A stretch of DNA of 64,000 nucleotides, from positions 1-64,000 of the forward strand of contig JALSHV010000015.1 in NCBI GenBank assembly GCA_026981975.1. Reading direction: 5' to 3'. The number at the start of each line of letters is the position of its first letter. Position 1 is the first letter of the stretch. The notes under the pieces are model-generated. The model searched no databases. It saw only the letters and a list, made by a program, of their open reading frames with translations, and was not told the origin of the DNA. The translations under genes and the position numbers were made by a program. Source of the DNA: Aquificaceae bacterium. Its GTDB lineage: Bacteria; Aquificota; Aquificia; Aquificales; Aquificaceae. Shown in pieces: positions 1,566 to 34,386 of the stretch.

Positions 1566-2276
1566 ATGGGAATAGGACTCATAGGAAAAAAAGCAGGAAT
1601 GACGAGAGTTTTTACTGCCGATGGAATTGCGATACCCGTTACCGTAGTGGAAGTTCCTGAAAACTATATAGTTCAAATTAAAACCCTTGAGAAGGACGGA
1701 TATACAGCTCTTCAAATAGGAGCGGTAGAAGCTAAGGAAAAACACCTTACAAAACCACTCATAGGTCATTTTAAAAAACACGGTGTAAAGCTTCTGAAGT
1801 ATTTAAGAGAGTTTAAAGTTGAGAATCCTCAAGAGTTCAAAGAAGGGCAGGAAATAAAACCAGAAGATATATTTTCTTCGGGAGATTTAGTAGATGTAGT
1901 AGGAACATCAAAAGGTAGAGGTTTTGCAGGAACGATGAAGAGATGGGATTTTTCCGGCTTTCCTAAATCCCACGGACACAGATATCACAGAGCGGTAGGA
2001 GCCATAGGAAACAGATCAGACCCCGGTAGAATATGGAAAGGAAAGAAAATGCCTGGACATTACGGAGCGGAGAAGATAAGAGTTCAGTCCTTATTGGTAG
2101 TTGATATTCTGGTTGAAGAGAAAATTCTTTTGCTGAAAGGTTCTGTTCCCGGACCTAACGGTGGACTGCTTGTAATAGAAAAAAGCACAATAGGTTACAG
2201 AAAAAAACAACAACTCAAACAGAAAAAACTCAAATCTCTTGTAGAAAACCTTCTGAAGGTAGGTGAAGCGTCATGA
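1566..2276 (+). CDS. rplC: 50S ribosomal protein L3
   Basis: [13 protein letters not shown] start, [12 protein letters not shown] motif; S10 operon order. Confidence 0.97.
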
Positions 2277-26062: not shown

Positions 26063-26836
26063 TCATTTCATTACCATAAATCTCATAAAACTGAACATAT
26101 ACTCTCTCATATGAGAAGTTAAAACAATACCTATAACAGGCAGTGAAAGAGCAAAAACTATAAGTCCTACCATAATCTGGAGAGGAAGACCTACCATAAA
26201 TACGTTTATCTGAGGTATAAACCTGTTGACAACCGCAAGAATAATATTTGTAAGAAGGGACGCTATCAAAACAGGAAGAGCTACTTTAACTCCCAGTGCA
26301 AAACTGCTGTAGAAAAAGGAAATAATCTTTTCACCACTTAAACTGTATAAATCAAAGTATCCCGGCGGAACAGTTTCAAGACTTTTAAGAATACCAATAT
26401 ACACTGTTTCCGCTCCTCCCAAGCTCAAGAACAAAGCAGAGCCTAAAAGCACCGAAAAACCTGCAAGGACTGTGGTTTGTGGTTGTTGAGGTAAAAACAT
26501 CATTAAAAAACCTAAACCCGCGTGAACCGCTATGACCTCACCCGCCACTGTAATAGCATCAAAAATGAGCCTTAAAATAAATCCCGCTGTAAATCCAAAC
26601 AAAGCTTCCTTCAAGGCTATTTCAACTAACTGAAAACTTGAATCTACCCTTACAGGCTCTACAGTTTCCATAAGCAGAAAAGAAAAAGCAATAGCAAAGG
26701 AAAAATAAATCCGAACAACGGTGGGAAGGAAAAATGTTCCGAAAAAAGGAATCATAAAGAGAAAGAAAAACACCCGTAAGAAAATAAGGAAAACCGTTAT
26801 GAGACTTTCTACATCTGGTAGTATCATCTTATCCAA
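26063..26836 (-). CDS. fliR: Flagellar biosynthetic protein FliR
   Basis: Six TM, GFTAGFILRLIFDAITVAGEVI motif; order fliPQR. Confidence 0.93.
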   Translation of the reverse strand: MDKMILPDVESLITVFLIFLRVFFFLFMIPFFGTFFLPTVVRIYFSFAIAFSFLLMETVEPVRVDSSFQLVEIALKEALFGFTAGFILRLIFDAITVAGEVIAVHAGLGFLMMFLPQQPQTTVLAGFSVLLGSALFLSLGGAETVYIGILKSLETVPPGYFDLYSLSGEKIISFFYSSFALGVKVALPVLIASLLTNIILAVVNRFIPQINVFMVGLPLQIMVGLIVFALSLPVIGIVLTSHMREYMFSFMRFMVMK

Positions 26837-27093
26837 AGGGGTATGTTTATAAGAATCTCTTTTGTAAAGTCCACAATCTTACTCATCATCCACCCCCCTA
26901 AGAAGAAAACTGTAAGCATTGCAGCAACTATTTTCGGAATATAAGCAAGAGTCATCTCCTGTATTTGAGTAGCCGCTTGGAAAACACTTACTACAAGGCC
27001 TACAACAAATGTTGCTATAAGCACCGGCGCCGCAAGTAGTATTGTCATTTCAAGAGCTTTTTGTCCCAAGGAAACTACAAGATCCGCTTCCAT
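26824..27093 (-). CDS. fliQ: Flagellar biosynthetic protein FliQ
   Basis: 89 aa, two TM, VSVFQAATQIQEMTLAYIPKI. Confidence 0.95.
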   Translation of the reverse strand: MEADLVVSLGQKALEMTILLAAPVLIATFVVGLVVSVFQAATQIQEMTLAYIPKIVAAMLTVFFLGGWMMSKIVDFTKEILINIPLWIR

Positions 27094-27102
27094 AATATCA
27101 CC

Positions 27103-27837
27103 TCATTGATAACTTCTTACTAATGACAATACAACAAGTTCCCAACCGTTAGCTAACACAAAAAGCATTATTTTGAAAGGAAGCGAAATTATCTGGGGAG
27201 GGATCATTATTATACCCATAGAGATAAGTATGGAAGCCACCACAAGATCAACTATAAGAAAAGGTATGTAAAGGAGAAAAACTATTTCAAAGGCTGTAGT
27301 GAGTTCGCTGATAATAAAAGCAGGCAGTAAAACACTCATTGGTATATCCTTAGGGTTTTTTATTCTTTCCCTGTCCTCCGGTTTGAGTTCCGCCACTTCC
27401 AAAAATATGCTTACTGTATCTTTTCTTGTTTGCTTTACCATAAAGGACTTAATAGAGTTAAGCGTTCTTTCAAAAAACTCCTTATCTGTTATTTCCTCCT
27501 TTATATAAGGTTGAAAAGCTTGATTATTTATATCCTCAAAGACAGGCTTCATTATAAAAAACGTCAGAAAAAGTGCAAGGGATATTATGACTTGGTTAGG
27601 AGGAACCTGTGGAATTCCTATAGCCTGTCTTAAAACTGAAAGGACAACAACAATCCTTATAAAGGAAGTTGTCATTATAAGAATGGAAGGAGCCAAGGAT
27701 AATACTGTAAACAGTATAAGTAATCGGACAGCGGTATCTAAATCTCCTTCGCCTATTTTGAGTTCAATCGGGGGAATTACCGCTTCCTGTGCCAGAACCG
27801 CTTGACTTAGGAACATCAGGAAAAGAAGAATTATCAT
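27103..27837 (-). CDS. fliP: Flagellar biosynthetic protein FliP
   Basis: Signal peptide, TSFIRIVVVLSVLRQAIGIPQVPPNQVIISLALFLTFFIM. Confidence 0.96.
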   Translation of the reverse strand: MIILLFLMFLSQAVLAQEAVIPPIELKIGEGDLDTAVRLLILFTVLSLAPSILIMTTSFIRIVVVLSVLRQAIGIPQVPPNQVIISLALFLTFFIMKPVFEDINNQAFQPYIKEEITDKEFFERTLNSIKSFMVKQTRKDTVSIFLEVAELKPEDRERIKNPKDIPMSVLLPAFIISELTTAFEIVFLLYIPFLIVDLVVASILISMGIIMIPPQIISLPFKIMLFVLANGWELVVLSLVRSYQ

Positions 27838-28090
27838 CTTCCCTATATATTACATCAGCTCCGCGCTCTCCTACGCACAGTATGATTGTCTTACCTTTAA
27901 CTTCCATTTCAACTATAAATACATTTTTAGAAAGTGTTACAACTTTTTTAATCTTAAAACTCCCTTCTTTTGAAAATCCCCTTAAAGTTGATATACGTTT
28001 CAGTAAAAAAGGTAACAGTAAAAAAATAAAGATTAAAACAACACCTAAGGAGAAGAGAATCTTGAAAATGTATTCGGTAAAATCCATCAC
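27764..28090 (-). CDS. fliO: FliO-like flagellar protein
   Basis: Single N-terminal TM, VVTLSKNVFIVEMEVKGKTIILCVGERGADVI resembles the FliO core; upstream of fliP. Confidence 0.8.
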   Translation of the reverse strand: MMDFTEYIFKILFSLGVVLIFIFLLLPFLLKRISTLRGFSKEGSFKIKKVVTLSKNVFIVEMEVKGKTIILCVGERGADVIYREDDNSSFPDVPKSSGSGTGSGNSPD

Positions 28091-28590
28091 TCAGCTTGAA
28101 CTACAAATTCCGTGAAATAAACGTTTCTCACCCCTCCCTGCACTAATATAGTATTAACCCTTTTTATAATTTCCAGTTTAAGCTGTTCTCTGCCTTCAGG
28201 GGAACGGAGTTCCCTAGAAGTCTTATTGGACAGTATTTCTATGATAGCATCTCTTAGTATAGGTTCTCTTTTTTGAACTTCAAGCACAACTTCCGGAGAG
28301 GAAACTTCTAAAGTAATTGAGACTCTTGCATACATAGTCATTTCAGGATCAGCCAAATTTACTATAAAGGAAGGTTCCAACTTATACATAACACCCACAG
28401 CTTCCGGAGGAACCGCAGGCTTGGGAACTTCTTCTTTTTTTTCTTCTTTTTTTGCAAATAAAAAGAAATAAGCGGTTCCACCAGCCCCTCCTAAAAGTAT
28501 GAGGAGAAGGAGGGCGATCAGGAGGAGCTTGCCCTTGCCTCCGCCGGTCTTCTCCTCCGTCTGTTGCGCCTCCCTCTCCTCGTCAGCCAT
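28087..28590 (-). CDS. fliL: Flagellar basal body-associated protein FliL
   Basis: Single TM, C-terminal FliL domain (SPEGREQLKLEIIKRVNTILVQGGVRNVYFTEFVVQ). Confidence 0.92.
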   Translation of the reverse strand: MADEEREAQQTEEKTGGGKGKLLLIALLLLILLGGAGGTAYFFLFAKKEEKKEEVPKPAVPPEAVGVMYKLEPSFIVNLADPEMTMYARVSITLEVSSPEVVLEVQKREPILRDAIIEILSNKTSRELRSPEGREQLKLEIIKRVNTILVQGGVRNVYFTEFVVQAE

Positions 28591-28598
28591 GGCTCTTA

Positions 28599-30077
28599 TT
28601 ATCTAACAAGATTAACAGTTTCATCAAGTATAGTATTAGAAGTTGTTATAACCCTTGCGTTTGCCTGGTAAGCCCGCTGAGCTGTAATCAGGTTTATAAA
28701 TTCCTTAGCTATATCAACGTTGGACATCTCCAACATTCCCGATCTTACCTTTTCAGCACCTCCTGCTAATAATATAGTTGGTGTTGTTATAGATGTGTAG
28801 AGGTTTGCACCCTTTTTTGTGAGTTCTTCAGGATCGGTGAAAACCGCCACCGCTACTCTGTATAAAGGAAGAGATTTCCCGTTTGAATACACACCCACAA
28901 CAGAACCGTCTTCAGAAAGAACGTAAACGTCTATAAGATCTCCCTTAGCGTAACCGTCTTGCTCAAGAGTAATTACAAATTCCGCCGCATACTGATTTAC
29001 ATAAGAGTTCTGGATCAGATTAACATCAGTATCCGAAGAGGATTCATCTCCGAGAGACAGTATCATTCCCGGCACTGTTGTAAGCCCTTCTACTGTGTTG
29101 CCTAAGGTTCCACCTGAAGCTGTGCTTAAGGTATCATTGGCACCCGTTGTAACATCGGAAGGTGGATTAGCGTTATCAAACATCTGTAAAAAGAAGTAAG
29201 TTTTGCTTCCCAACGTAACAGCTTGAAAGCCCGGATTTACAGCCTGTGTATCATCTTGATCTATTTTTCCTGTAGCGGGGTCAAAAACTACGGTTTGGTA
29301 GTTGTAAGTGTTCCCTCCTGATGTTTCAAAACCAGAACGGTAAGCGTTTGATATGAGATTTTCGTAATTTCCGTCTCCGTCATAATCACTGAGTATAAAA
29401 ATACGCCATCTGTTAGAGCCTGTTTCTTTTTTGAAAAAAACGTCCGCTTGATATTCATTTCCTAAGCTATCGTATATGCTTATAGTGTATTTATAGTTGT
29501 AGGTGGTTGTGCTGTTAGGATCAAAAGGAGCTGTGGGAGCTATTGCTTCCGCATTTAAATTGGTAGGTTGTAGAAAATTAACCCTGCCTGTAGCCCTGGG
29601 GGGAAGCTGCTGTTGAACATGTATGCTTTCCAATCCTGTGCCTATAACTTCTCCTTTATCGTTGAGTTTAAAACCTTGAAGGTAAAATCCACCTGAAGTG
29701 ACCATATAACCATCTCTGCTAAGTCTGAACTGTCCGTCCCTTGTGTAAAAGCTCGCACCCGTTATAGGATCTTTGAGAATAAAAAGACCTCTGCCTTGAA
29801 TTGCAAGATCTGTATTAACACCAGTTTGTTTAAAGTTTCCTATGGTCCAGAATTTTTGAGTGCTATCCACTACCACACCAGCTCCGTAAGTGGTGGATTT
29901 TAGTGTTCCCGTAACTACATTTAAGCCTATGGTAACCTGAGATATGACATCTTGAAATAACGGTCTCTGAGCTTTAAAAGCTACAGTATTGACATTTGAA
30001 ATGTTGTCGGAAGTAACATCAATCCAAAAACGCGAAGCGTCCATTCCCGTTACAGCGTTGAAGAAACTCCTCAGCAT
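28599..30077 (-). CDS. flgE: Flagellar hook protein FlgE
   Basis: MLRSFFNAVTGMDASRFWIDVTSDNISNVNTVAFK; C-term FINLITAQRAYQANARVITTSNTILDETVNLVR. Confidence 0.95.
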   Translation of the reverse strand: MLRSFFNAVTGMDASRFWIDVTSDNISNVNTVAFKAQRPLFQDVISQVTIGLNVVTGTLKSTTYGAGVVVDSTQKFWTIGNFKQTGVNTDLAIQGRGLFILKDPITGASFYTRDGQFRLSRDGYMVTSGGFYLQGFKLNDKGEVIGTGLESIHVQQQLPPRATGRVNFLQPTNLNAEAIAPTAPFDPNSTTTYNYKYTISIYDSLGNEYQADVFFKKETGSNRWRIFILSDYDGDGNYENLISNAYRSGFETSGGNTYNYQTVVFDPATGKIDQDDTQAVNPGFQAVTLGSKTYFFLQMFDNANPPSDVTTGANDTLSTASGGTLGNTVEGLTTVPGMILSLGDESSSDTDVNLIQNSYVNQYAAEFVITLEQDGYAKGDLIDVYVLSEDGSVVGVYSNGKSLPLYRVAVAVFTDPEELTKKGANLYTSITTPTILLAGGAEKVRSGMLEMSNVDIAKEFINLITAQRAYQANARVITTSNTILDETVNLVR

Positions 30078-30079
30078 AT

Positions 30080-30712
30080 CTACACCCCCGCATAGATAAT
30101 TCTGGAAGCAGAAATCTGTCTACCAGAGAGCAGATCCAGCATAAGCTCTCCGTCTATAATGCCTGCGGATTGGACTGTATCTTTAAAGCCCAACTTCCAG
30201 TTGAGAAGTTGAGTATCCCCTTTAAAGAGTTCTACTTTAAACTGTCCCTTAGGAAGATCAGATATGTCCAGTGGGTTGAGTCCTTTTTCCAAATCCACAG
30301 TTAACTCCTTTATAACTTCTTCCCCATCGTAAATTTTTACTTTTACATCTTTGAGTTTTTCAGCAGATAGTATGTAGTATTCTCCACCTTTTACGTTGTC
30401 CAAAATATCGGTTTCAAAGATAAAGTTCTTTCCTATCATGCTTAAACTTTGCATAAAAGTCATTTGGTTCATCCAAAGGGAAAGATTTTTTAGAAAGAAT
30501 TTCATGTCAGTGTAAAAGCGTATTTGATTTAGTCTAACTACATCTTCAATGGATTTGGAAAGATCCTGCTGTCTGAAGGGATCTTGAAATTTGAGAGTTT
30601 CTAAGTAAATCTTCATAAAGTCTGTGGTAGATAGATTATCAAAGGATTGCACATAGTCCGGACCTACTACCTGCGGTTCTTTTACCTTTAAAGATTCTCC
30701 TGAATTGATCAT
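30080..30712 (-). CDS. flgD: Flagellar hook assembly protein FlgD
   Basis: FMKIYLETLKFQDPFRQQDLSKSIEDVVRLNQI motif; adjacent to flgE. Confidence 0.9.
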   Translation of the reverse strand: MINSGESLKVKEPQVVGPDYVQSFDNLSTTDFMKIYLETLKFQDPFRQQDLSKSIEDVVRLNQIRFYTDMKFFLKNLSLWMNQMTFMQSLSMIGKNFIFETDILDNVKGGEYYILSAEKLKDVKVKIYDGEEVIKELTVDLEKGLNPLDISDLPKGQFKVELFKGDTQLLNWKLGFKDTVQSAGIIDGELMLDLLSGRQISASRIIYAGV

Positions 30713-30960
30713 TTCCTTCCTCCCTGTTTCGCTCTTATTTCCTGAGCCAGTATTTCCTTAAAGGTTTTAGCTTCTGTTCTTGTTTCCCTTCCGGAAAGAA
30801 CTCCCTTCAGATCGTATATTCTCTTCTCCTTGCGCAGGATCACTTCTTTATCCTTTACTTCTACTTTGAGAATATCTCCTTCCTTTACTCCTAATCTCTT
30901 CCTGATATCACTGGGAAGAGCTATTAAGCCTCTTGCCATTACCTTTACAATATCCTCCAT
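30709..30960 (-). CDS. AbrB/SpoVT-type (VapB-like) antitoxin / transcriptional regulator
   Basis: MARGLIALPSDIRKRLGVKEGDILKVEVKDKEVILRKE swapped-hairpin AbrB signature; 4-nt ATGA overlap with flgD. Confidence 0.9.
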   Translation of the reverse strand: MEDIVKVMARGLIALPSDIRKRLGVKEGDILKVEVKDKEVILRKEKRIYDLKGVLSGRETRTEAKTFKEILAQEIRAKQGGRK

Positions 30961-31012
30961 GACTTTATATAAATATCGGATCATTGTTGAAATTTTCAAG
31001 CATCATGTAAGA

Positions 31013-31032
31013 TAAAATGTCTTGACATTTTA
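31013..31032. promoter_or_regulatory. Candidate operator: perfect inverted repeat in the AbrB/PIN divergent region
   Basis: TAAAATGTC-TT-GACATTTTA (9-bp arms, 2-bp spacer), overlapping the TTGACA -35 at 31022-31027. Confidence 0.7.
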
Positions 31033-31048
31033 GTTTGTTTGATACAAT
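31022..31048 (+). promoter_or_regulatory. Candidate sigma70-type promoter for the PIN gene
   Basis: TTGACA (31022-31027), 15-nt spacer, TACAAT (31043-31048). Confidence 0.6.
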
Positions 31049-31056
31049 TTATTATC

Positions 31057-31452
31057 GTGAAGCTACTTGACAGCACTGTTCTTTTAGAATTCTTCTGCGG
31101 TTCTGAAGAAAGAATAAATAGAATAGACAAATTGTTTAGGAATTTGGAGAGAAGGAAGGAAAAACTTTTAATAACCCAAGAAGTTATAACAGAACTGATT
31201 TACTATTTAGAAGTAGTTTACAAATGGGAACGGGAAGTTATAGCTGATATAGTTAACACAATTCTGAAAGACAGTTTGTTCAGTGTGGAGAATCGGGAAA
31301 CTATACAAAGAGCGCTCATAGTATATCTGAAAGCAGGTTTAAGTTTTATGGATTCCCTTAAAACTGCAAAGGCTGAAAGTAAGAAAGTTAAAGAGGCTGT
31401 TTCCTACAACAAAAGGTTTGAAAAAGCAAAAATTAGAGTTATTCACCCCTAA
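31057..31452 (+). CDS. PIN-domain protein (VapC-like toxin), GTG start at 31057
   Basis: VKLLDSTVLLEFF, ITQEVITELIYYLE, GLSFMDSLKTAKAES match the PIN acidic motif spacing; the fourth motif reads SYNKRFEKA. Confidence 0.82.
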   Translation: MKLLDSTVLLEFFCGSEERINRIDKLFRNLERRKEKLLITQEVITELIYYLEVVYKWEREVIADIVNTILKDSLFSVENRETIQRALIVYLKAGLSFMDSLKTAKAESKKVKEAVSYNKRFEKAKIRVIHP

Positions 31453-32725
31453 GAGCTGAATAGAGCTTTCTTAGATCCTCTACACTTTCGGAAAAAGAAA
31501 CACCTACTTTGTAATTCTGTTTAAAAAAGTTATCTATAAGATCCTTATTTTCAATAACTTTATCTACCGCTAAATTTGAACCTTTTTTATACAAACCAAG
31601 ATTTACCAAATCCTCCATTGATTCAAAAGAGTTCAACAGTTCCCTTACATACATAGCCATAGTTATATGTTCTTCAGAAACAAGACGGGGCATAAGTCTT
31701 GAAAGGCTTCTCACAGGATCAACAGCAGGAAATATACCAGCATTAGCACGTTTACGGGATAAGACTATATGTCCATCAAACATTCCCACAAGAGCATCAG
31801 CAACAGGATCTAATGTAATATCATCTCCTTCTACCAAGACGCTGAATATTCCCGTAATACTACCCCCTTTTTTAAAATTTCCACAGCTTTCCACTATATT
31901 CGCCATCATGTGGAATACGGAAGGAGTATATCCTTTAAGAGTAGGGGGTTCTCCGGCAGTTAACCCTATTTCTCTCTGAGCCATAGCAAAGCGTGTTATA
32001 GAGTCCATAACAAGCAACACGTCAGCACCTTTTTGAGCGAAATAACGGGCATGAACAATTGCACTCAACGCCCCCTTTACTTTAACAACAGGCGGTTCAT
32101 CTGCAGTAGAGACAACAACTATACTTTTTTTAAGTCCTTCTCCTAAAACGTCTTCTATAAACTCTCTTACTTCCCTTCCTCTTTCACCTATAAGTGCCAA
32201 TACAACAACGTCCGCAGCACTGTAGTTAGTTATCATTCCCAGAAGTGTGCTTTTTCCCACTCCCGCTCCTGCGAATATTCCTATTTTCTGTCCTTTGCCT
32301 AAGGTAAAAAGAGCGTTTATAGATCTTATTCCTGTATCAAATACTTCTTTTATTCTTTCTCTGTCTAAGGGATTTATAGAGAAAAGTTCTATAGGGAGTT
32401 TCTCAGCTGTGTATATGGGAGTTCCATCTAAGGGTTTGCCAAAGGGATCAACCACTTTACCCAAAAGTATTTCACCTGTGGAAGTTGAAACGTGTTCACT
32501 CCTTACAAGAACTCTGTCACCAGGTTTTATACCCGATAGTTTACCGTAAGGCATTACTATGCATCTGTCTTCGTTAAAACCTATAACTTCTCCGTATATA
32601 CTCTCTCCGAAGGAAGGAAATATCTCCACCATATCTCCCGTAGCACTGCCAGGATTGTAAGCTTCAAGGTATATACCGCTGACTTTTACAATTTTTCCGT
32701 ATATTTTAACTCCTTTTAAGGACAC
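31439..32725 (-). CDS. fliI: Flagellum-specific ATP synthase FliI
   Basis: IFAGAGVGKSTLLGMI Walker A; ALIGERGREVREFIED; FliI/rotary ATPase family. Confidence 0.95.
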   Translation of the reverse strand: MSLKGVKIYGKIVKVSGIYLEAYNPGSATGDMVEIFPSFGESIYGEVIGFNEDRCIVMPYGKLSGIKPGDRVLVRSEHVSTSTGEILLGKVVDPFGKPLDGTPIYTAEKLPIELFSINPLDRERIKEVFDTGIRSINALFTLGKGQKIGIFAGAGVGKSTLLGMITNYSAADVVVLALIGERGREVREFIEDVLGEGLKKSIVVVSTADEPPVVKVKGALSAIVHARYFAQKGADVLLVMDSITRFAMAQREIGLTAGEPPTLKGYTPSVFHMMANIVESCGNFKKGGSITGIFSVLVEGDDITLDPVADALVGMFDGHIVLSRKRANAGIFPAVDPVRSLSRLMPRLVSEEHITMAMYVRELLNSFESMEDLVNLGLYKKGSNLAVDKVIENKDLIDNFFKQNYKVGVSFSESVEDLRKLYSALRGE

Positions 32726-33386
32726 GTTTTACAACCTCTCTAAAGATTTCTTCAAGTATCTCTCCCTCTTTTCTCTCTATGATAAACTTGGGAGTTTCCA
32801 CTCTTATTTCCCCCCGTGAAAGGTTGGGATCTGAAGTTATTTCCACTTCAACCCTGTCACTTAGCTTCTCGTCAACTGTTCCTACAAATTCGTAAGCTCT
32901 GTCTATATCTGTTGGATTTAAGAATATCTTCACACTCCCTTTCAAATCTATTGATCCGCTGAATATCTCTTCAAGTATTCTGGTTATAACTTCTTCCTTA
33001 GGAAGCACATCTGTCATAAGGAATTCTTTCAGAACCGCCAGTGCTATTTGAACCATGTCATTCCTGAGTTTGTCCTTTACTTCTGTAAGTTGTGATTTCA
33101 GCTTCTTTTCAAGTTCCGCTATCATCTTGAACACTGTTTCCCTGCTTTCTAATTGTCTACTTTTATCAGTAAGTTCTTTTTCTTTTTGTTTGATAATCTC
33201 TTCCAACTCTTTTAACTTTTCACGAAGTATGCGATTCTCTTCTCTGAGCTTAGTAACTTCCTGCCGTGCAAGGGAAAGTTCCTCCTGTAGTTTTCTCTTC
33301 TCCTTTTCATCCTTCTCTGCACTATCTTGAAAAGAAGTTAACCGTTCAAGAGAAGTGCTGAATATAGGTCTAAAATCCTTAGACAT
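32706..33386 (-). CDS. fliH: Flagellar assembly protein FliH
   Basis: N-terminal coiled coil, C-terminal FliH/HrpE fold; between fliG and fliI. Confidence 0.88.
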   Translation of the reverse strand: MSKDFRPIFSTSLERLTSFQDSAEKDEKEKRKLQEELSLARQEVTKLREENRILREKLKELEEIIKQKEKELTDKSRQLESRETVFKMIAELEKKLKSQLTEVKDKLRNDMVQIALAVLKEFLMTDVLPKEEVITRILEEIFSGSIDLKGSVKIFLNPTDIDRAYEFVGTVDEKLSDRVEVEITSDPNLSRGEIRVETPKFIIERKEGEILEEIFREVVKRVLKRS

Positions 33387-34386
33387 AAGCTTCTTCTCCT
33401 CCCAGTTCTATTTTACCCTCATCTATTAGCTTCCTTATAACCGCTACAACCTGTTTCTGCGCTCTTTCCACTTCACTTTTCTTGACAGGTCCTAAAGCTT
33501 CCATATCTTCTTGCATTATCTTCGCCGCTCTTTTGGACATGTTGGAGAAAAACTTATCCTTTATATCCTCAGGCGCACCCTTAAGGGCTATTATCAACGT
33601 ATTTTTATCAACAGCCTTGAGAACTTCTATTATTGCTCTGTTGTCAAGCTTACGTATATCTTCAAAGGTAAACATCTTTTCCCTTATTCTTTCCTCAAGA
33701 GTTGGATCCTCCTCTCCTATTTTGCGAAGAAGGTTTTCCGCACTTTCTTTATCCAACATGTTCATCAATTCCGCTGCAATAGCTACTCCTTCTTGCTTCT
33801 TTATCCCTCCGCCTATACCTAAGACCTTTATCTCTTCCGTTACAGTCTCTATGAGTTCTCTTAGAAACTGAGGAGAAACGTTCTCAAGAGTTGCTATTCT
33901 TTTAACTACTTCAAAACGGAGATTTTCAGGAAGCCATTGAAGAATATCCGCCGCTTTCCGAGGAGTAAGTTGGGAAAGCAAAACAGCAAGGGTCTGGGGA
34001 TGTTCGTTTTTTATAAGTCCTGCGAGAACTCTGGTGTCTATCTTCTCAAGCTGTTCAAGTCCCTCCGCAACTCCCGCAGATCCTATAAGACTTTTTATCC
34101 TTTCATAAACCTCTGGTGGAAGAACTCCTTGAAGCTGTTCTAAAAGAGTTTCTAAATTGGAATACTGAGTAGCTACATAGCTGAAATCTTCCAAGAATTC
34201 TCTAACAGAGGTTTCTATATCTGAAGCAGTTAAATCCTTAAGACGTGCAGCTGTTAAAAATATCTTCTGAATTTCTTCTTCTGTCAGCTCCTTTAGAATT
34301 TTAGCCGCCACATCGGGAGGCATTGACATAAGGAGAATTGCAGCTTTTTCAACTTTTGATAAGTCCCTTCTGGTTGTTTCAGCCAT
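33379..34386 (-). CDS. fliG: Flagellar motor switch protein FliG
   Basis: EHPQTLAVLLSQLTPRKAADIL (EHPQ motif), MFTFEDIRKLDNRAIIEVLK. Confidence 0.96.
   Translation of the reverse strand: MAETTRRDLSKVEKAAILLMSMPPDVAAKILKELTEEEIQKIFLTAARLKDLTASDIETSVREFLEDFSYVATQYSNLETLLEQLQGVLPPEVYERIKSLIGSAGVAEGLEQLEKIDTRVLAGLIKNEHPQTLAVLLSQLTPRKAADILQWLPENLRFEVVKRIATLENVSPQFLRELIETVTEEIKVLGIGGGIKKQEGVAIAAELMNMLDKESAENLLRKIGEEDPTLEERIREKMFTFEDIRKLDNRAIIEVLKAVDKNTLIIALKGAPEDIKDKFFSNMSKRAAKIMQEDMEALGPVKKSEVERAQKQVVAVIRKLIDEGKIELGGEEAYV

Follow-up and report, generated by a model that had tools for sequence, protein, structure and literature searches.

The flagellar locus described here belongs to the Aquificaceae, bacteria of hot springs and deep-sea vents, and carries a VapB-like AbrB gene and a VapC-like PIN gene transcribed divergently between fliI and flgD. 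Both components are of kinds already known. The best explanation for their presence, which we hold with moderate confidence, is that a VapBC-type module has been domesticated as a regulator of the flgDE-fliLOPQR operon. In the window (G000:C15:1-64000, the whole 64,000-nucleotide stretch of DNA that was analyzed), fliG-fliH-fliI and flgD-flgE-fliL-fliO-fliP-fliQ-fliR are all encoded on the minus strand, and the region is organized as follows:

26063..28590, minus strand: fliL-fliO-fliP-fliQ-fliR, in the same transcription direction as flgE and downstream of it
28599..30077, minus strand: flgE (hook)
30080..30712, minus strand: flgD (hook cap), weak PF03963 match (E 0.02), with homologs preceding flgE in all loci
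30709..30960, minus strand: AbrB/SpoVT-domain protein, VapB-like, 83 aa (PF04014, TIGR01439, alignment of 24 orthologs)
30961..31056, no strand: divergent intergenic region of 96 bp with both promoters (95-97 bp long in the genus, with conserved blocks)
31057..31452, plus strand: PIN-domain protein, VapC-like, 131 aa, GTG start (PF01850, alignment, tree, dN/dS)
31439..32725, minus strand: fliI export ATPase (Pfam)
32706..34386, minus strand: fliH and fliG (Pfam)

The initial annotation had described a divergent AbrB (minus) and PIN (plus) pair lying between flgD-flgE-fliLOPQR and fliI-fliH-fliG, and this is confirmed by gene order and Pfam. The PIN protein matches PF01850 (E 1.5e-8, 35.7 bits, cut-off 23.6), and the AbrB protein matches both PF04014 MazE_antitoxin (E 1.2e-8, 35.2 bits, cut-off 24.7) and TIGR01439 (E 9.6e-12). 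Alignment of 24 AbrB orthologs reveals an N-terminal DNA-binding domain followed by a conserved C-terminal tail, YDLKG...SFxEILAxE. Both genes are real, but the starts originally assigned to them, at TTG codons, had to be corrected by ortholog alignment to ATG 30960 for AbrB (83 aa rather than 96) and GTG 31057 for PIN (131 aa rather than 137). As a result of these corrections, the gap between the two genes is 96 bp in the window; it is 95-97 bp in all measured genomes of the window's genus (g1). The AbrB gene overlaps flgD by 4 bp (ATGA). At the other end of the pair, the annotated tail-to-tail overlap of the PIN stop (31452) with the fliI stop (31439) holds and amounts to 14 bp, within a range of 11-20 bp across the genus members measured. 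Elsewhere in the cluster, the listed reading frames of fliO and fliP overlap by 74 bp (window 27764-27837, minus strand), and the real fliP start is probably more downstream.

The ortholog neighbourhood search suggested by the initial annotation recovered the same divergent pair between flgD and fliI in 14/17 genomes of g1, as well as in g3 (G018, G027, G034, G087) and g8 (G023; a contig end interrupts it in G030). Contig ends also interrupt the arrangement in two g1 genomes (G014, G015), and one g1 genome of 79% completeness (G012) carries neither the pair nor FliG. The orientation is divergent in all g1, g3 and g8 genomes having both genes on one contig. Since the arrangement recurs in this way, and since dN/dS is about 0.1 for both genes, the divergent pair is not a chance arrangement.

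AbrB is more widely distributed than the PIN gene that adjoins it. In five genomes (G017, G024, G026, G031, G033), AbrB is located directly before flgD with a different gene upstream. When 84,980 species genomes were scanned with the AbrB alignment, 25 loci were found, all in Aquificota, and every one immediately precedes flgD-flgE; 18 have a divergent PIN and 7 have no PIN beside AbrB. One of these loci (L206) has an Acidobacteria title that looks wrong, as it apparently belongs to an Aquificaceae genome (G072:C20), and the title Aquifex aeolicus of L195 also looks wrong, the gene order being that of the window's genus. A scan of close-relative contigs with the PIN protein gave no match, single-protein patterns probably being too strict (the AbrB alignment worked).

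The flagellar proteins are separated by score from the ordinary VapB and VapC proteins of the phylum, at 80 bits or more versus at most 52 for AbrB and at least 95 versus at most 76 bits for PIN, the latter leaving out one contig-split PIN fragment. In a tree with small sampling, all flagellar PINs are separate from five ordinary VapCs (97/97), and the relocated PINs form one clade (100/98). An Aquifex AbrB match (G019:C1:203353) was ruled out as a flagellar AbrB, with 51 bits and a PIN fragment of its own as partner. This locus (L178, G019:C1:202000-205500, ~1354-1861) is an ordinary co-directional VapBC-like pair, the PIN frame of which ends after ~96 residues and is probably a decayed toxin. 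In G016 (L006, G016:C147:6046-9438), the AbrB before flgD has an in-frame gap of ~27 residues in the DNA-binding domain (MDEILKVEVKD...) and retains its tail; the gap could be a genuine deletion or come from an assembly error.

Co-occurrence with flagella was assessed in 64 family genomes using FliG. AbrB is present in 37/50 FliG-positive versus 0/14 FliG-negative genomes, and PIN in 43/50 FliG-positive genomes versus an intact copy in 2/14 FliG-negative ones, both of them Aquifex (which we take to be genus g4) at 89% completeness; the corresponding Fisher tests gave 4e-7 and 1e-6, values that take no account of phylogeny and are descriptive only. FliG-negative genomes are scattered over g1, g4, g5, g6, g7, g9 and g11, which makes several independent losses likely. 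In one of them (G070, g11; L171, G070:C95:16000-17994), a PIN remnant with three stops is observed. The exceptions to co-occurrence are g10, which is flagellated and has neither gene, and Aquifex, which has PIN only.

In the outgroup genomes G046 (family f3) and G037 (f2), fliI is followed by flgD on the same strand with no pair between them (the two genes overlap in G046), and in g10 flgD also follows fliI on the same strand without the pair. This adjacency indicates that the pair was inserted into the flagellar operon. The simplest history suggested by these gene orders comprises the entry of an AbrB/PIN module between fliI and flgD in Aquificaceae, a later break at that point in g2, g9 and g11 that left AbrB next to flgD, and loss of AbrB in Aquifex. 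The initial annotation had offered capture of a toxin-antitoxin module and flagellar repurposing as alternatives; judging from the sequences, both appear to have taken place, an insertion and then establishment of AbrB at the head of the flgD operon (25/25 loci), such that this reading is partly supported overall.

The fate of PIN differs among the genera in which it no longer adjoins AbrB. In g11, PIN follows fliI-proA on the same strand, and both AbrB and PIN are still in flagellar neighbourhoods. In Aquifex, flgD has no AbrB in front, and a stand-alone PIN is present in 7/7 genus genomes, two of these without FliG. Because PIN is intact there without AbrB, including in the two genomes without FliG, the Aquifex PIN appears to have its own role or persistence. 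At three Aquifex-type loci (L018, L020, L021), this PIN ortholog has D1, E2 and D3 intact and no adjoining AbrB, and a glycosyltransferase gene is nearby in L018 and L021. Partnership of AbrB with a different toxin elsewhere was considered and dropped, as no flagellar AbrB copy adjoins another toxin; in three genera, the probable partner has moved away.

The divergent intergenic region was inspected for promoters and candidate operators, and the following elements were read from it:

30973..30997, minus strand: sigma-28 (FliA)-type promoter of AbrB-flgDE, GAAA-N14-CCGATAT, predicted from its match to the flagellin promoter
31013..31032, no strand: inverted repeat TAAAATGTC-TT-GACATTTTA over the PIN -35, a weak candidate AbrB operator found in only some genus members
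31022..31048, plus strand: PIN promoter, with -35 TTGACA (31022-31027), a 15-nt spacer and extended -10 TGATACAAT (31040-31048), read from the sequence and conserved in the genus
31037..31044, minus strand: TATCAAAC box, counterpart in the genus alignment of the half-site preceding AbrB in other genera

The sigma-28 promoter type used for comparison was TAAA-N14/15-GCCGATAA. CCGATAT is found on the AbrB side in 14/14 aligned genus members, and the flagellin gene of the same genome is preceded, at a distance of 36 nt from its start, by TAAA-N14-CCGATAT, with a -10 and spacing identical to those of the AbrB promoter. FliA is encoded in the window's genome (204 bits), and FliA above the cut-off was not found in two non-flagellated genomes tested. 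Genome-wide, the sigma-28 pattern was no commoner than in a reversed control (17 versus 19), and it was therefore rejected as a regulon finder and used only for individual sites before genes; in the absence of enrichment, the assignment rests on position and spacing. A similar box is located 24 nt before a HAMP-domain sensor-like gene (L099, G000:C10 near 106157), a candidate motility/chemotaxis gene. On the PIN side, TTGACA-N15-TACAAT with an extended -10 (TGA) ends 8 nt before the start, and the AbrB and PIN transcripts are both predicted to be nearly leaderless. No terminator-like site was found between fliI and AbrB in a scan that the terminators of this phylum may not fit, so fliGHI transcription is predicted to read through antisense to PIN and into AbrB-flgDE.

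Genera other than g1 have an AbrB promoter of the TTGACA-N17-TATAAT type, the -35 of which falls within the palindrome TRTCAAAC-N2/3-YTTGACA in g2, g3, g9 and g11. The strict pattern TRTCAAACN{2,5}TTGACA occurs at only 6 sites in 8 whole genomes, five over the AbrB -35 and one inside cas1, and the genus of the window lacks it. Part of the candidate operator signal may be no more than promoter, TTGACA also being the AbrB -35. The PIN -35 of the window is covered by a perfect 9-bp inverted repeat (31013-31032), which only some genus members keep; on that ground it was rejected as an operator for the genus as a whole. One half of the repurposing proposal in the initial annotation, namely that AbrB is an operator-binding partner, is supported by the strict pattern, a candidate operator that is nearly exclusive to the AbrB promoter.

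The other half of that proposal, that PIN is an RNase, fares less well. VapC proteins are defined by four conserved acidic active-site residues (PMC3384007, PMC6118392). The first three are kept in g1, g3, g4 and g8 (in the window protein, D5, E46 and the D99-region SFMD). Throughout the flagellar PIN clade another residue stands in place of the fourth, N in the window protein and N, S, G or others elsewhere. The g2, g9 and g11 proteins have E, S or Q at the position of the third acid, lack the C-terminal region and vary at the first acid. Pairwise dN/dS medians are 0.12 (g1), 0.08 (g3), 0.11 (g11) and 0.06 (g9) for PIN and 0.04-0.08 for AbrB. The low values for PIN in g9 and g11 indicate that selection still acts on the protein even in its catalytically crippled forms. 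The catalytic function of PIN appears dispensable in some genera, although the PIN protein itself does not. A PDB search with the PIN alignment gave no sequence match, and a single-sequence AlphaFold model of PIN (pLDDT 47, all-helical) was discarded.

The AbrB tail (YDLKG ... SFAQILAEE) is retained in g2, g9 and g11. In G082, a flagellated genome of 99% completeness without PIN, AbrB precedes flgD and its tail is broken, reading YAIRG and ending early:

L169 (G082:C3:77000-81000), ~1608-1860, minus strand: AbrB with a shortened tail, in the only flagellated genome with AbrB and without PIN

In the VapBC system of Shigella, the AbrB-type VapB uses its C-terminal tail to bind VapC, forming a complex that binds to operators over the promoter (PMC3384007). 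Since the AbrB tail decays where PIN is absent and the Shigella VapB tail binds VapC, we infer that AbrB and PIN are partners; by this analogy, the co-decay of tail and PIN offers the best indirect evidence for the partnership.

These observations are consistent with a mechanism in which an ancestral fliGHI-flgDE operon of Aquificaceae received a VapBC-type AbrB/PIN module at the fliI-flgD junction, and the module was then domesticated. AbrB would head the flgD-flgE(-fliLOPQR) operon as a translationally coupled gene and act as its negative autoregulator. AbrB dimers would bind TTTGACA/TGTCAAA half-sites in the intergenic region, shutting the promoter of AbrB-flgDE and, where the pair is divergent, probably that of PIN as well. 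PIN, presumably bound to the AbrB C-terminal tail, would serve mainly as a co-repressor, a titrating partner or a sensor of AbrB level and not as a killer, with or without residual RNase activity in the window's genus. In that genus, sigma-28 would read the operon promoter, so that expression of the hook and export genes would come late and afterwards be dampened by AbrB, the first product of their own operon, and motility might be affected. A stricter version, which we advance only tentatively, is that the toxin half is a catalytically dead pseudo-nuclease with the sole job of tuning the DNA binding of the antitoxin, making the pair a dedicated feedback regulator of hook and export genes.

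A counterpoint to the domesticated-regulator reading is that three of the four catalytic acids are intact in the window's genus, and because of this RNase activity or toxicity may be possible there, up to an active toxin-antitoxin system. A working VapBC module captured by the flagellar locus would consist of a toxic RNase and its antitoxin, used for addiction or stress response, and the coupling to flgD would mean that loss of the operon frees the toxin. Such a module would account for the invariance of D1, E2 and D3 in g1, g3, g8 and Aquifex and for the conserved AbrB tail, and the antitoxin-flgD coupling would enforce retention of the operon. We nevertheless find it rather unlikely, given the replacement of the fourth acid in the whole clade, the catalytic loss with continued selection in g2, g9 and g11, and the stand-alone PIN of Aquifex-type genomes with no adjoining antitoxin. 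Moreover, flagella and the pair were lost together in several lineages with no sign of addiction, and the long vertical retention is not the mobility typical of toxin-antitoxin genes.

It is distinctly unlikely that AbrB and PIN are no longer partners, with AbrB alone regulating the flgDE operon and PIN being an independent RNase or RNA-binding protein that is a neighbour by chance. AbrB does remain with flgD where PIN has moved, and PIN remains in Aquifex without AbrB. However, both genes are present in 36 genomes and AbrB alone in 1, the AbrB tail decays exactly in that genome (G082), and the 95-97 bp divergent promoter region is kept throughout the genus. A chance neighbourhood without any functional flagellar link has nothing to recommend it beyond the general mobility of toxin-antitoxin genes; it is very improbable and already contradicted by the order conserved in three genera, the AbrB-flgD association at 25/25 loci and the co-loss with flagella.

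Under the preferred reading of domestication as an operon regulator, the pair bears on the old dispute over why chromosomal toxin-antitoxin modules are kept. One module can be traced from insertion into a flagellar operon, through capture of the antitoxin by the operon, to loss of the toxin active site under continued selection. With these stages traceable, domestication becomes a hypothesis open to direct test in a flagellar system. Flagellar control is little known in Aquificota, and the pair also provides a candidate local regulator there. If the stricter version with a dead pseudo-nuclease is true, living Aquificaceae would show how a selfish module turned into a regulator of an organelle, with its active, intermediate and dead stages all visible. 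A literature search, with subscription journals largely outside its scope, found no description of a flagellar AbrB/PIN pair.

Compared with known systems, the pair has the PIN domain of VapBC and an AbrB-type antitoxin with a DNA-binding N-domain and a predicted toxin-binding C-tail, and its SpoVT/AbrB DNA-binding domain also places AbrB among the AbrB-family regulators. Autoregulation through inverted repeats may occur, with a palindrome over the AbrB -35 in g2, g3, g9 and g11 and a weaker candidate operator in g1. The full set of four VapC acids, the co-directional bicistronic operon and the mobile, patchy distribution are all lacking, and the pair is therefore classed as a domesticated derivative and not as VapBC, although it may still work partly like one. 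The closest likeness is to VapBC with an AbrB-type VapB in Shigella flexneri (PMC3384007), which also combines an AbrB-fold DNA-binding protein bearing a C-terminal tail with a PIN protein and has inverted repeats over the promoter. Whereas VapBC genes are co-directional, the Aquificaceae pair is divergent and AbrB is coupled to flgD instead of vapC; the fourth PIN acid is replaced, with the active site lost in three genera, and the pair is family-confined, fixed in position and vertically kept with flagella (except PIN in Aquifex). MqsRA of Escherichia coli is another case of an antitoxin reaching beyond its own operon and touching motility, MqsA affecting flhD and motility (reviewed in PMC4803016), but it involves other protein families and acts remotely and indirectly via rpoS/csgD, not within a flagellar operon. 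The AbrB/SpoVT transition-state regulators of Bacillus share the DNA-binding fold (PDB matches 5itm, 2l66, 1z0r, 2w1t) but are global regulators with neither a PIN partner nor an antitoxin tail. The FlgM/FliA checkpoint is, like the role proposed here for AbrB, a control layer on sigma-28-dependent flagellar transcription; the checkpoint acts on the sigma factor, whereas AbrB would act on the DNA of one operon.
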